A stretch of DNA of 64,000 nucleotides from Rubripirellula sp. Lineage in GTDB: Bacteria > Planctomycetota > Planctomycetia > Pirellulales > Pirellulaceae. Each line of letters starts with the position of its first letter. The first letter of the stretch is position 1. The stretch covers positions 1 to 64,000 of the forward strand of contig JAQWPZ010000264.1 of assembly GCA_029245125.1 (NCBI GenBank), in the 5' to 3' direction. The notes under the pieces were generated by a model. The model was given only the letters and a program-made list of their open reading frames with translations, searched no databases and had not been told where the DNA came from. Made by a program: the position numbers and the translations under genes. Shown here in pieces: positions 40,558-45,184 of the stretch.

Positions 40558-43500
40558 ATGTCGATCGCCCTGAGCGAATTTTGGACCAGACTGGTACGGG
40601 TGGGGATTACCGATTCCGACGGTTGTAGGGAATTGGCCTCGGTTTACAGCCGCGCGCACCAAGGTACCCCACCGAGCGACGCCAGAAGCCTTGCGAAGTT
40701 CCTAGTGAAAACTGCGGTACTTACAAAGTTTCAAGCGAGATCACTGCTCGCCTCCGAACTCGGCACACTCCGGGTCGGGCCATGGCTGATTCTTCGGGAT
40801 CACGCGAAGGCTCCCTTCGCTAATTGGCTTTCGGTTCGGCACGCTGAAGATGGGCGTACTGGAGTGCTGCTGAGAGCCTCTGGAGAAGCGTTGGCAGGTG
40901 GGCGGGACCTTTGGCTCGAGGCTCATGAGCAAGTTTCCGCGGCGGCACTTCAAGGTTTTGAAGTCGTAAGCGACGATGCGACCACGTCGATCTTTAGTTC
41001 GCTGCCGCCAGGATGCTCACTTGCCGAGTCGACACAGAACGGGGGGGTGATGTCGCCGCAACAGGTGGTTGATGTCGGCATCTCAGTGGCCAACGCCCTG
41101 CATGCCATGCACGCCAGGTCGCTGATTCATGGAGGTCCGCGACTCGACCGCGTTTGGGTTACCTCGAAGGGCAAGGCGATTCTTTTGCGAGACCCTGCTG
41201 GACCGCCCGCGAGTCCTTGGGATGATTTTGGTGGTGGTTGGTTGGATGGCTTGGATCCCCCCAACTCGTATCTTGCTCCAGAGTTCCTTGACCACGCCCA
41301 TCCCTGCGATGTTGGAACTGATATTTACAGTTTGGGATGCTTGTTGTTTCGTTTGCTTACGGGGCGGCCGCCTGTCAAAGCAAAGTCGGTCGAGGATGCC
41401 GTCTCGCTGCACGCTTCCGAAACAGCACCGGAATTAGCAGAAGCTGTTGCAAGAGGCGAAGCAGGTGACCCGCTGTTTCGAGTTCTTGCCTACGCCATGG
41501 CCAAGACCGCTGCGGCTAGGTTTGGCACTGCAGATCAATTGGCGACCGCCCTGCAGGCAACTCGTCCCTTCGTTCAATCACGTTCAGCGACTGATGCGGT
41601 CCCACCGGCTGGATCGTCGCAACCGACTGATTCCCAAACCGCGGCGTCCAGTTCGCGGCGGGCGAAGGATTCAGTAGCAAGCAAGCCACAGCAAGATCAA
41701 CAGAAAAAGTCCGGATCCCCAACCGCAAAGAGCAGCAAGTCAAAGCGGGATTCCCAAGAGGCCAACCCAACCCAAAGTACCAAGCCAAGCCGGGACGCCA
41801 AATCCGACCAGAAAACGAAGCCCGACCAGAAAACGAAGGCACCGCAGAAGACCGAGGACACTGAGAAAGCCAAGTCAATTGCACCCGCTTCTGCGGAGGC
41901 CACCCGTTCAAAGCGTTCGAAGGAAAAAGAGGGTGCCGAGACGAGGTCGCGGAATGCGGCGAAGACGGTTTCCTCCGAGCCCGGTCAACGAAATCAACCG
42001 CCTCGCGAATCAGTGGATGCACCGCAGCTTGCAGGAGACCAGCCTTCTGCTGGAACGAAGATCCCTCCTGTTGTCGACGCGGTTCGAGAAGCACCTGCGA
42101 CTCCTGCTGCGGTCCCGCCGAGTGCTGGCCCCGTCCCGCCGCCAGCGGTCGTGCCACCGACGGTGAGTGAGGCACCACCGATGGTTGATGGTATGCCTGC
42201 AACTCCACCGATCGAGCTCAGTAGCAAGCCTGCGGGCGTGTCGGAGGGTTCGCCGCCGAGTGAGTCTGATCCGCCCCGCCGCCGACGGAAGAAAAAAGAC
42301 CGCAGAGCCCCAATCATTCTGGGTGGACTTTGTGTCGCTGTCCTGGTTCTACTGATTGGCTTGTTGGTTCCGCCTTCGCAAAAAACAAAACCTGAACCGC
42401 GTCGCCGACCGCCGGTGCCCACGACCATTCCTTCGGTAACGAGTCGGTCTCCTGATGATTCAGGAACGATCCCGACTGAAAGCGAGGGGGTCGCAGGGTA
42501 CGAGTTGGTTTCGGATGACCGATTGCTTTTCGTCCCACCATACGCCGCCGAATCGGAGACACCGTCTCTTGAGCTGTTACCACCCGGCCCTGCCGTCATT
42601 CTTAGCTGGAATGTTGCCTCGGTGATCAATACTCCGTCCGGTCAGGATCTGCAGTCTGCTTTGTCGCCCGATCTGGATAACTTGATGCAAAAGGTCGTTG
42701 CGGCCTCTAAGATTCCTTTGGATCAGATCAAACGCTGCACTGTTGCGCTGCATCCTGGAGCGGATGGTTGGCCGGAAGCATCGCTGAGCATCGTGTTAGC
42801 CGAGGCACGCCCCCAAAAAGATTTGATTGAACTGTGGCAGGTTGCTGCTTCACGCACGTCATCCGGTGCCACAATCTACGCAGGTGACTCGGTCGATGGA
42901 GCCGCATACTACTTTCCGAAAACAGAGGAATCGGGTGTGGCCCGTTTTGCTGTCGGTTCAATTCAAAGGATGAGCGAGGTGGCCGAAGCGGAGGGTGGAG
43001 CGATCCCGCTCGCGCGATCGACTGAACGTCTTTGGGGTGCGGCTAGCTCGGAAGCTGACATGGTTGCGTTGATCACGCCGAACTTTTTGTTTGCCGATGG
43101 CCGCGAAATGCTCAGTTCGGTGGTTCCCGAATTGGTCAATCCTTTGAAAACTGTGTTGATCCCCGACGTAGCAGGAGCCTTGTTTACGGTCGATATCGTT
43201 GGTGACCAATGCTATTTGGAAACGAGGTTGGCTCCCAGCGGCGGGACGAGCGAAGCGGCATTACTAAAAAAATTGCGGACTGCCATCGACTTATGGCCGC
43301 AGTGGGCTGAGGATTTTATTGTGACCTCTGTGCCAGATGCTTCATGGCGGCTGCTGGCATCAAGATTGCCCTCCATGATGCGATTCGTTTCAGGTCAATT
43401 CCGTTATGGGATTTCTGGTGGCATCGTTATCGCTAACTCTTATCTGCCAGTAGAGTCGGTTCCCCAGTTGAGCGTCGCCGTCGTTTTTGCGATGAATACA

Positions 43501-43959
43501 ACCGGTCAATCAATGGCTGTTACCCAGGTAAATCCTGAAACCCAGCTTACTGTCGAGGAAATGTTGGAACAGGAGATGTCGGTTTCGTTTGATCAGGAGT
43601 CATTGGAGTTTGCAATTGATGCCATTGTGGGAGCTTTCAATGCTGAGCTTCCCAGAGGTGTGGTTCTGCCACCGGTGCGAATCATTGGCGCTGATTTGGA
43701 ATTGAGTGGGATTACGCAGAACCAGCAGGTGCTTGATTTTGAGAAATCGAATGTAACGCTGCGAAGCGTCCTTACCGATCTAGTTGTCGGTGCAAATCCA
43801 GACAAATCGTCGACCGCGCCCAGTGATTCGAAACAAGCCTTGATTTGGGTTCTTGCGAAAGATCAAGCGGGAAAACCTGAAATTCGAATTACCACCCGGA
43901 AAGTCGCTGCTGGTAAGTACGATTTACCGAGAGAGTTTCAAGCTCCGGATGCGAATTGA
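40558..43959 (+). CDS. membrane-bound Ser/Thr pseudokinase
   Basis: 1133 residues. An N-terminal helical part (LAKFLVKTAVLTKFQARSLLA) is typical of planctomycete kinases. The kinase fold (about 70-330) is recognisable from YLAPEFLDH, GTDIYSLGCLLFRLLTGRPP, but catalysis is lost: no glycine-rich loop, no VAxK lysine (GVLLRAS), IHGGPRLDRV in place of HRDxKPxN, and LLRDPAG in place of DFG. A K/S/T/Q-rich then Pro/Ala-rich linker (about 340-580) leads to one membrane segment (IILGGLCVAVLVLLIGLLV) and a ~525-residue extracytoplasmic part I do not recognise. Probably a scaffold or sensor rather than an enzyme. Confidence 0.85.
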   Translation: MSIALSEFWTRLVRVGITDSDGCRELASVYSRAHQGTPPSDARSLAKFLVKTAVLTKFQARSLLASELGTLRVGPWLILRDHAKAPFANWLSVRHAEDGRTGVLLRASGEALAGGRDLWLEAHEQVSAAALQGFEVVSDDATTSIFSSLPPGCSLAESTQNGGVMSPQQVVDVGISVANALHAMHARSLIHGGPRLDRVWVTSKGKAILLRDPAGPPASPWDDFGGGWLDGLDPPNSYLAPEFLDHAHPCDVGTDIYSLGCLLFRLLTGRPPVKAKSVEDAVSLHASETAPELAEAVARGEAGDPLFRVLAYAMAKTAAARFGTADQLATALQATRPFVQSRSATDAVPPAGSSQPTDSQTAASSSRRAKDSVASKPQQDQQKKSGSPTAKSSKSKRDSQEANPTQSTKPSRDAKSDQKTKPDQKTKAPQKTEDTEKAKSIAPASAEATRSKRSKEKEGAETRSRNAAKTVSSEPGQRNQPPRESVDAPQLAGDQPSAGTKIPPVVDAVREAPATPAAVPPSAGPVPPPAVVPPTVSEAPPMVDGMPATPPIELSSKPAGVSEGSPPSESDPPRRRRKKKDRRAPIILGGLCVAVLVLLIGLLVPPSQKTKPEPRRRPPVPTTIPSVTSRSPDDSGTIPTESEGVAGYELVSDDRLLFVPPYAAESETPSLELLPPGPAVILSWNVASVINTPSGQDLQSALSPDLDNLMQKVVAASKIPLDQIKRCTVALHPGADGWPEASLSIVLAEARPQKDLIELWQVAASRTSSGATIYAGDSVDGAAYYFPKTEESGVARFAVGSIQRMSEVAEAEGGAIPLARSTERLWGAASSEADMVALITPNFLFADGREMLSSVVPELVNPLKTVLIPDVAGALFTVDIVGDQCYLETRLAPSGGTSEAALLKKLRTAIDLWPQWAEDFIVTSVPDASWRLLASRLPSMMRFVSGQFRYGISGGIVIANSYLPVESVPQLSVAVVFAMNTTGQSMAVTQVNPETQLTVEEMLEQEMSVSFDQESLEFAIDAIVGAFNAELPRGVVLPPVRIIGADLELSGITQNQQVLDFEKSNVTLRSVLTDLVVGANPDKSSTAPSDSKQALIWVLAKDQAGKPEIRITTRKVAAGKYDLPREFQAPDAN

Positions 43960-44227
43960 AAAATTGCTGTCGCAGATTTTATGATGCGTTGCAGGGGCCT
44001 ATTGGAATGGAACGATTGGCTTTATGTTTCCGTCCAAGGCAAAGGTTCGGGGTAGGCGACTGGTCAACGCTTACCGAATCGTTCAGGCGGAATAGGAGAG
44101 TTCAGCGTGGTTGGTCGAAGCAATTTGATTTCTATGATTGGAATCTTGATGCTTTTCGGCACCGGTGGGCGACCAAGGGTCTACGGTTCTCCCAGCGGCT
44201 CCTCTTCAAAATCGGCGAATACGAAAC

Positions 44228-45184
44228 ATGTCAGACGTTGACTTTCTCTCGATCAGCGTCGCCACCTTACTGCCGGTGCGGTTTGCTGGAATCGATCTGT
44301 ACCAAAAACAGACCGGATCAGAACGTCTGATTCTCTATCGCAGTGCTGAATACCCAATCACACGCGAGGATCTGGACAGCTTGCGTGTCAGCGGTGTGCA
44401 TCGACTCTTCATTTCAAAAGCGTCACGAACAGACTATCAGAGGTATTTGCGGAAGATCGTCACGGTGGACGATCCACGGTCGATTCCGCTTTCCGCGCGT
44501 ACCAGCGCTCTCAATGAGGTGGTTCGTGACGTTCTTTATTTGGCATTCACAAAGGGCAATGTCGACCAAACAGTGAACGCTGCAAAGCAGCTTGGGGTTT
44601 TGGTAGCGGATATTCTTACCAAGGATGACTTTTCGGCTAGCGACTTGTTCAGAGTGTTGCACGATGACTATGCGACCTTTACTCATTCAGCGAATGTTGC
44701 CTTCTACTGCGGCATCTTGGTGGCTGAGCTTGGATTTTCCCAAACAGAAATCGAGCAGGTCACCACGGGTGGTCTGCTGCACGATCTTGGCAAACTCGAT
44801 ATCGAGGAGGGAATTCTCAGTAAGCCAGGTCCGCTTAGTTTGGAGGAATTCCTCAGGGTTCGGATGTACCCCTACCTCGGCTATCAGAAATTGGTTTCGC
44901 GAGAGGATCTTGTCGAAGGTCAGCTGATGATGGTCTATCAGCACCGCGAGCGATTGGATGGGAAGGGGTATCCGAAGGGGTGCTGCTCCGAGGACATTCA
45001 TCAGTGGGCGAAGATTTGTGCAGTAGTGGATGTTTTTGAAGCCCTGACCAGTCGGCGACCCTACCGTTCGTCGATGACTCATGACGATGCACTGGCCCTG
45101 CAGCAACGGGATATTGGAACAGCATTCGATCCGAATATTTTGGAGTGTTGGGCTTCGATAGTTCAACGTGATTTTCTCAAATGA
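44228..45184 (+). CDS. HD-GYP domain protein (cyclic-di-GMP phosphodiesterase type)
   Basis: 318 residues. An N-terminal ~120-residue part (PVRFAGIDLYQKQTGSERLIL) has no known motif to me. The HD-GYP domain follows: TTGGLLHDLGKLDI (HD pair about 185) and YQHRERLDGKGYP, near the HHExxDGxGYP signature, then VVDVFEALTSRRPYR. Metal ligands look intact, so c-di-GMP hydrolysis is plausible. ATG at 44228 follows an unremarkable leader with no ribosome site. It follows the pseudokinase by about 270 bases on the same strand; a link is possible. Confidence 0.85.
   Translation: MSDVDFLSISVATLLPVRFAGIDLYQKQTGSERLILYRSAEYPITREDLDSLRVSGVHRLFISKASRTDYQRYLRKIVTVDDPRSIPLSARTSALNEVVRDVLYLAFTKGNVDQTVNAAKQLGVLVADILTKDDFSASDLFRVLHDDYATFTHSANVAFYCGILVAELGFSQTEIEQVTTGGLLHDLGKLDIEEGILSKPGPLSLEEFLRVRMYPYLGYQKLVSREDLVEGQLMMVYQHRERLDGKGYPKGCCSEDIHQWAKICAVVDVFEALTSRRPYRSSMTHDDALALQQRDIGTAFDPNILECWASIVQRDFLK

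Follow-up and report, generated by a model that had tools for sequence, protein, structure and literature searches.

Seven families of bacterial pseudokinases have been reviewed (PMC12599244), and the stem 'planctomyc' does not occur in the accessible part of that review. As described there and in the accessible part of PMC9600267, EssB/YukC of the type VIIb secretion system is a bitopic protein with a cytoplasmic pseudokinase and a role in assembly. The MviN pseudokinase domain/ActPs3 is membrane-linked, does not bind ATP and functions in recruitment, ActPs3 being mainly actinobacterial, and in the mainly proteobacterial GLW pseudokinases the HRD motif and the Lys are replaced (PMC12599244, same part). 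Planctomycetota kinases were classed as functional in 2024 by the K-D-D residues, in a paper whose main text, in the portion available, does not use the word 'pseudokinase' (PMC11032199). Here we describe a gene in a 64,000-nucleotide stretch of DNA from Rubripirellula sp. (assembly GCA_029245125.1, contig JAQWPZ010000264.1, positions 1 to 64,000), referred to as the window. The gene occupies positions 40558..43959 of the forward strand, which also carries all the features of the protein located below. It begins with ATG, encodes 1133 amino acids and has a single full-length match in its own genome. Literature searches, including one for planctomycete pseudokinases, returned no paper on this protein family as judged by title and start of abstract, and the available part of PMC1262709 contains no passage on the family.

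We read the protein as a bitopic inner-membrane envelope protein of Planctomycetota in which the kinase-like half probably acts as a non-catalytic cytoplasmic scaffold, and assign this reading a probability of roughly 0.56. From the N- to the C-terminus the protein comprises an N-terminal module, a pseudokinase, a linker, a transmembrane segment, an extracytoplasmic domain and an STN-like end. The N-terminal module (residues 1–68, 40558..40761) has no Pfam match in the window protein and was helical in a low-confidence structure model. A hidden Markov model (HMM) of 57 orthologue modules also matches active planctomycete kinases, namely L003 (1.8e-10) and L004 (1.1e-7), two kinases of the window's own genome that carry the ~68-residue module, and the L155 gene (2.8e-8). 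Its presence in active kinases suggests an origin from an ordinary planctomycete kinase. AlphaFold2 predictions, for which the input was two near-identical sequences, were of low confidence, with predicted local distance difference test scores (pLDDT) of 34 for the STN-like end and 37; thus, the folds discussed here rest on sequence only. PDB profile searches returned nothing credible. A pseudogene or a frame error is ruled out by the 1133 open codons, the orthologues found across the order and the low ratio of nonsynonymous to synonymous substitution (dN/dS).

The kinase-like region spans residues 69–345 (40762..41592). A Pfam scan of the window protein with E-values up to 10 yielded Pkinase (PF00069, 9.8e-10, best stretch at residues 237–288) and PK_Tyr_Ser-Thr (0.0025, under the cut-off), and no family besides these two. 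The PF00069 score of 32.2 bits is the lowest above the cut-off in this genome, in which other proteins reach 199.4. An HMM of 12 active planctomycete kinases matches the region at 6.3e-28, and phmmer aligned residues 151–331 with PknB of M. tuberculosis in the PDB (2.3e-9). In the columns used for scoring, all 12 kinases have the Lys, the Asp residues of HRD and DFG, and the Asn; as an HRD-type motif had served to select them, the independent control is limited to the Lys and DFG positions. The family alignment and hmmalign both show the segment from APE (residues 240–242) to DIYSLG (255–260) to be retained (41275..41337), and APE, the DxYxLG pattern and the overall profile together indicate a protein kinase-like fold. 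A first, sequence-only reading of the locus had proposed that this fold is kept, which PF00069 and the HMM of active kinases support.

The same reading held that every catalytic motif is lost. Set in an alignment beside three active kinases from its own genome, the window protein shows Leu105 (40870..40872) at the ATP-binding Lys of the VAIK motif, a position at which hmmalign places a gap, and it has neither the Asn nor a glycine loop. The HRD equivalent is H191-G192-G193 (41128..41136) in phmmer, the family alignment and hmmalign. The proposed losses of the Lys, the HRD Asp and the glycine loop are thus borne out. The DFG stretch is R211-D212-P213-A214 (RDPAG), with R211-D212-P213 (41188..41196) as the DFG equivalent. 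The DFG motif itself is gone, as proposed; the loss of its Asp is uncertain, since D212 lies within one residue of the position. A literal DFG at residues 223–225 was considered as a displaced motif, but among 11 near relatives it occurs only in the window protein and L039, and it was taken as chance.

Orthologues are found throughout the order. Of 196 genomes from this order, 144 were matched by the outer half (residues 625–1133) used as a query and 165 by a profile of 37 members at E ≤ 1e-3, 146 of the latter at E ≤ 1e-30. Family f17, for which no strong match was listed, accounts for 16 of the remaining 19. The nearest named relative, L039, comes from a Rubripirellula (order Pirellulales), and a contig scan gave L039 as the sole locus. 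The set examined comprised 142 loci (L001, L021, L039 and 139 fetched stretches) and the orthologue was recovered in 131; 11 loci without a tblastn match in the box were left out, though each of these genomes had matched in the earlier outer-half search. The profile alignments used 37 of 45 chosen sequences (A1), 23 of 125 (A6) and 22 of 63 (A7), and two kinase alignments that misplaced motifs (A2 and A4) were not used.

A kinase-like region, defined by a match at E < 1e-3 to the HMM of the 12 active kinases, is present in 86 of the 131 orthologues. Orthologues with intact catalytic residues were looked for as counter-evidence, and the Lys, the HRD Asp and the DFG Asp occur together in none of the 86 (hmmalign). 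The Lys is kept in 4 of 86 by hmmalign and in 3 of 90 by the family alignment, the HRD Asp in 15 of 86, and a DFG Asp was fitted in 14 of 86 by hmmalign. In the C-lobe motifs, the P, E, D and G positions are each kept in 82–84 of 86. The replacements are themselves regular: Gly stands at the HRD Arg column in 83 of 90 sequences of the family alignment (79 of 86 by hmmalign) and Pro at the DFG Gly column in 87 of 90 (by hmmalign, Pro in 59 and Gly in 10 of 86). These alignments support a pseudokinase with a predicted catalytic impairment that is shared across Pirellulales. Nonetheless, the wording of the sequence-only reading, 'every motif lost' and 'consistent loss', was too strong, given the orthologues that keep the HRD Asp and the two of family f3, L078 and L136, that retain the Lys, HGD and the Asn; L136 has GFP in place of DFG. 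L078 and L136 differ mainly at DFG and may represent intermediates in catalytic decay.

The window protein has a single hydrophobic segment (residues 586–604, 42313..42369, mean hydropathy 3.16), with a strongly positive, Arg/Lys-rich N-terminal side and ~529 residues on its C-terminal side. It is preceded by a low-complexity linker rich in Pro, Lys and Ser (residues 346–583, 41593..42306). Lys and Arg are more abundant N-terminal of the best hydrophobic segment in 76 of the 86 kinase-like orthologues; seven of the 86 have no clear hydrophobic segment, some of them being cut sequences. Among the orthologues that lack the kinase, a pattern flagged 4 of 34 rows as lipobox-like, one of which (L069) has an ordinary transmembrane segment, and a lipobox-like Cys after a short hydrophobic start was recognized by eye in L139, L121 and L157. 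The rows of family f7 mostly have an ordinary transmembrane segment. As the lipobox-like or signal-like start directly precedes the outer domain in these forms, it supports an outer location of the C-terminal half by a line of evidence independent of charge. Together, the sequence features support a bitopic layout, with the kinase-like half predicted to be cytoplasmic and the C-terminal half outside the membrane. The kinase-less L150, L157, L167, L129, L139 and L121 start in a lipobox-like manner, so that some lineages may have the outer domain as a lipoprotein.

The conserved extracytoplasmic domain covers residues 651–1006 (42508..43575). This part has no credible Pfam match in the 37 members, in which, besides STN, there are scattered matches between 0.01 and 1. 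The last ~110 residues contain an invariant Asn and an invariant Thr-Thr within the GITxNQ and ITTR motifs; in the window protein this end corresponds to residues 1007–1115 (GITQNQ ... ITTR, 43576..43902). Pfam STN (PF07660) matches 6 of 23 members there (best 1.1e-4) and FecR_C matches 3 of 23. In 77 of the 131 loci a co-oriented gene encoding an N-terminal CxxC...CxxC motif lies within 450 bp downstream, whereas in 52 it is absent next door and two loci are at a contig end. The product of this gene, the partner, is of the zinc ribbon-transmembrane-STN-like type. The partner of L076 has a LysW-type zinc ribbon match over the cut-off, and in that of L050 the zinc ribbon and STN matches both stay below the cut-offs. 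The STN-like domain of the partner matches Pfam STN in 8 of 22 proteins (best 7.6e-7), and hhalign aligned it to the STN-like end with a probability of 93.8 and an E-value of 1.7e-7. By profile resemblance, the outer half appears to end in a divergent STN-like domain of the secretin/TonB type. The outer domain of ~525 residues, claimed to be unrecognised, is thus not wholly so, its last ~110 residues being STN-like by profile. With a profile of 26 partner proteins, 195 of the 196 genomes gave a match at E ≤ 1e-3, and often more than one; on these matches the partner family, or its parts, is widespread in the order. Frames of ~1300 residues match the partner profile in several f17 genomes, the family without a strong match to the pseudokinase protein.

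The inner half is not constant. The kinase-like part is absent from 28 of 28 f7 loci and from a few loci of f1, f2 and f8, three f8 rows having unclear 5' ends. L107 and L141 were rejected as true kinase losses; in both the upstream open reading frame overlaps the gene, by 124 and 303 bp, respectively, and carries the N-terminal module, and frame breaks are likely. L126 has a kinase-like match of only 0.0023. In L153 the N-terminal module and the outer domain are present but nothing matches a kinase, as if the kinase alone had been deleted. When 392 genomes sampled across the phylum were scanned, the profile matched 27 genomes of f21, a family of the same class that we presume to be Planctomycetales, at 8.2e-48 or better, and the best match beyond the order and f21 was 1.0e-10. 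Twenty f21 loci were fetched, and all 19 recovered proteins have an N-terminal CxxC...CxxC motif instead of the kinase; the one checked by Pfam has zinc ribbon matches just under the cut-off. The inner half is therefore exchangeable at the level of sequence: a pseudokinase in most Pirellulales, absent in several lineages and a predicted zinc ribbon in f21.

A tree built from 134 outer domains (83 from kinase-like proteins, 32 from proteins lacking the kinase and 19 from zinc ribbon proteins) requires a total of six changes of the inner module, which can be read as one exchange of kinase and zinc ribbon between the two groups and up to five kinase losses, or four without L107. It was a quick tree, with support below 80 for 29 of 131 inner branches. 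Its rows were 115 of the 131 orthologues, L107 still among them, and 19 of the 20 f21 loci. Rows shorter than 400 or longer than 620 residues, L101, L123 and L175 (unclear 5' ends), 5'-cut rows without a kinase match, the longer kinase-less rows (L153 and L126) and 3'-cut rows were left out, and the short kinase-less L166 and L167 are outside the tree. Since the root was placed on f21, the tree leaves undecided which of kinase and zinc ribbon was first.

These results suggest the following arrangement. The protein would be a bitopic inner-membrane component of a planctomycete envelope assembly, with the extracytoplasmic domain and its STN-like end as the core. As the outer domain is the most conserved part and sometimes the sole part, it would carry the main task. 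The cytoplasmic half would be a kinase domain related to the ordinary planctomycete Ser/Thr kinases and impaired across Pirellulales. Because a zinc ribbon can stand where the dead kinase does, or the inner half can be missing altogether, neither catalysis nor a specific signalling step through this half can be a general function, and the dead kinase may be kept as a non-catalytic module for docking or dimerisation. Such a role would fit best, by analogy with EssB/YukC and MviN (accessible part of PMC12599244; YukC contacts, PMC9600267). The STN-like end probably meets other STN-bearing proteins, for example the zinc ribbon-transmembrane-STN-like neighbour; this contact is suggested by gene order and the shared STN-like domain, and the f8 loci weaken it. 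We infer scaffolding and the absence of ATP binding, as well as any answer to which module came first.

Several observations weigh against this arrangement. The partner is not next door in any of the 32 f8 loci, nor in 17 of 36 f1 loci, the window included, and in f8 genomes the best matches to the partner profile are weak (~1e-14 to 1e-26, except 2.7e-49 in G167). In the window's genome the zinc ribbon-transmembrane candidate, L179, is on another contig (C31) and resembles the query over the zinc ribbon only in a single-sequence search. For the window protein itself, Pfam returns no STN match. Finally, the alignments considered below allow that the DFG Asp of the window protein may be displaced by one residue only.

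An alternative is that the protein is a receptor or sensor, with a ligand bound by the outer domain and the pseudokinase serving as a non-catalytic signalling switch that changes shape or partner. The bitopic layout, the conserved outer domain and the purifying selection on the pseudokinase in one pair agree with it. However, kinase signalling cannot be general where the inner half is missing in all f7 loci, is a zinc ribbon in all 19 f21 proteins or gives way to lipoprotein-like forms, and the outer domain has no credible Pfam match to a ligand-binding family. We consider a receptor unlikely; of the two roles offered by the sequence-only reading, scaffold and ligand sensor, the scaffold is favoured, by inference.

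The kinase region might instead be a remnant that was fused, inactivated and left to drift, with occasional deletion, the outer domain being the sole working part. In one pair, the window protein and L039, dN/dS rises from 0.061 in the STN-like end and 0.086 in the outer domain to 0.10 in the N-terminal module, 0.18 in the kinase-like region and 0.42 in the linker, which is the most variable part; comparisons with L040 and L041 were saturated at synonymous sites for most parts. The outer half is better conserved than the kinase-like half. Selection on the kinase-like part, as first proposed, is thus seen in one pair, at a lower constraint than that of the outer half. This lower constraint, the several losses on the tree, the kinase-less L153 and the faint match of L126 are what a remnant would leave. 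Nonetheless, 0.18 is far from 1, and the regular Gly for the HRD Arg and Pro for the DFG Gly argue against drift, so that a remnant is improbable.

Equally improbable is residual nucleotide binding or an unusual catalysis through displaced residues, as described for SelO and SidJ in the accessible part of PMC12599244, with D212 for example as the DFG Asp. D212 is opposite the DFG Asp in two of three alignments, phmmer with PknB and hmmalign to the 12 active kinases; the family alignment sets R-D-P opposite D-F-G and puts D212 at the F position. Counting from the His, two of the three active references place the Asp at +20; in the third, L005, that position is T and the Asp follows at +21. The window protein likewise shows D at +21, after R at +20, and D is found at +20 in 2 and at +21 in 17 of the 86 orthologues. 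His spacing was dropped as proof that the DFG Asp is lost because the active L005 shares the window's +21 spacing. The retained HRD Asp in 15 orthologues and the Lys, HGD and Asn of the two f3 proteins likewise favour residual binding, but the window protein lacks the Lys, the HRD Asp, the Asn and the glycine loop, and no orthologue has the three residues together.

By Pfam, the window gene is flanked by a divergent glgA and followed by an HD-domain gene; we take further neighbours to be galT, a methyltransferase gene and hemB. The glgA and HD-GYP context noted in the sequence-only reading is present in the window but local: glgA lies beside 10 of 131 orthologues, and HD-GYP protein matches occur in 5 of 131 stretches, in four of them directly downstream. 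An operon logic linking the gene to glgA and HD-GYP was consequently rejected. The HD-GYP protein (44165-45184 in the window) is directly downstream in the same-genus L040 and L041. L039 lacks a match to it; there, 96 bp past the pseudokinase gene, a methyltransferase match begins on the opposite strand. In 56 loci the divergent gene upstream is of the glutamate dehydrogenase type, in 55 of them within 1 kb (for example L102:6327-7562); 120 of the 131 loci hold 1 kb upstream, and one member was checked by Pfam. The window has glgA at the site where this gene sits in much of the order. In f21 a second zinc-ribbon gene lies downstream in 13 of 19 loci, and the two f21 downstream proteins that were checked gave one DUF1559 match and one weak FecR_C match.

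On a wider and more tentative view, which we hold to be possible but short of probable, there would be a Planctomycetota-specific envelope machine of bitopic zinc ribbon and STN-like proteins, of which the Pirellulales subunit has a kinase as a structural part in place of the zinc ribbon. If so, it would add a pseudokinase family to the seven reviewed ones, with stages of decay visible in living species. Bacterial pseudokinases with a known role are few, and an order-wide family allows the order of catalytic loss to be compared. Its members range from those that keep the Lys, Asp and Asn through those that keep little to those in which the domain is missing, which makes the need for the dead domain testable. 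The family also marks a conserved envelope protein that planctomycete kinase counts requiring K-D-D would miss.

Compared with the known systems, the window protein is closest in layout to EssB/YukC, which the accessible part of PMC12599244 also describes as bitopic, with a folded extracellular part and a cytoplasmic pseudokinase whose motifs and glycine loop are degraded. Unlike EssB/YukC, it has a low-complexity linker before the transmembrane segment and an STN-like outer end; its Pfam matches are to the two kinase families only, and no type VII secretion gene was recognized among the neighbours looked at. The window protein shares with MviN/ActPs3 a membrane-linked pseudokinase. MviN is a polytopic flippase, whereas the window protein shows one transmembrane segment and no MviN match in Pfam. 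Like the GLW family, as far as the accessible account of that family goes, it has a hydrophobic residue at the Lys position, replaced HRD and Lys, and a transmembrane segment after the kinase, but HG (HGG in the window), not GLW, stands for HRD. With the active planctomycete Ser/Thr kinases analysed here it has the N-terminal module in common. In secretins and TonB receptors the STN domain is N-terminal (per the Pfam name, PF07660), whereas the STN-like domain is C-terminal in this single-pass protein. The family could be an unnamed part of one of 42 classified kinase families; we take it to be a new family of transmembrane bacterial pseudokinases with an unusual exchange of the inner module.

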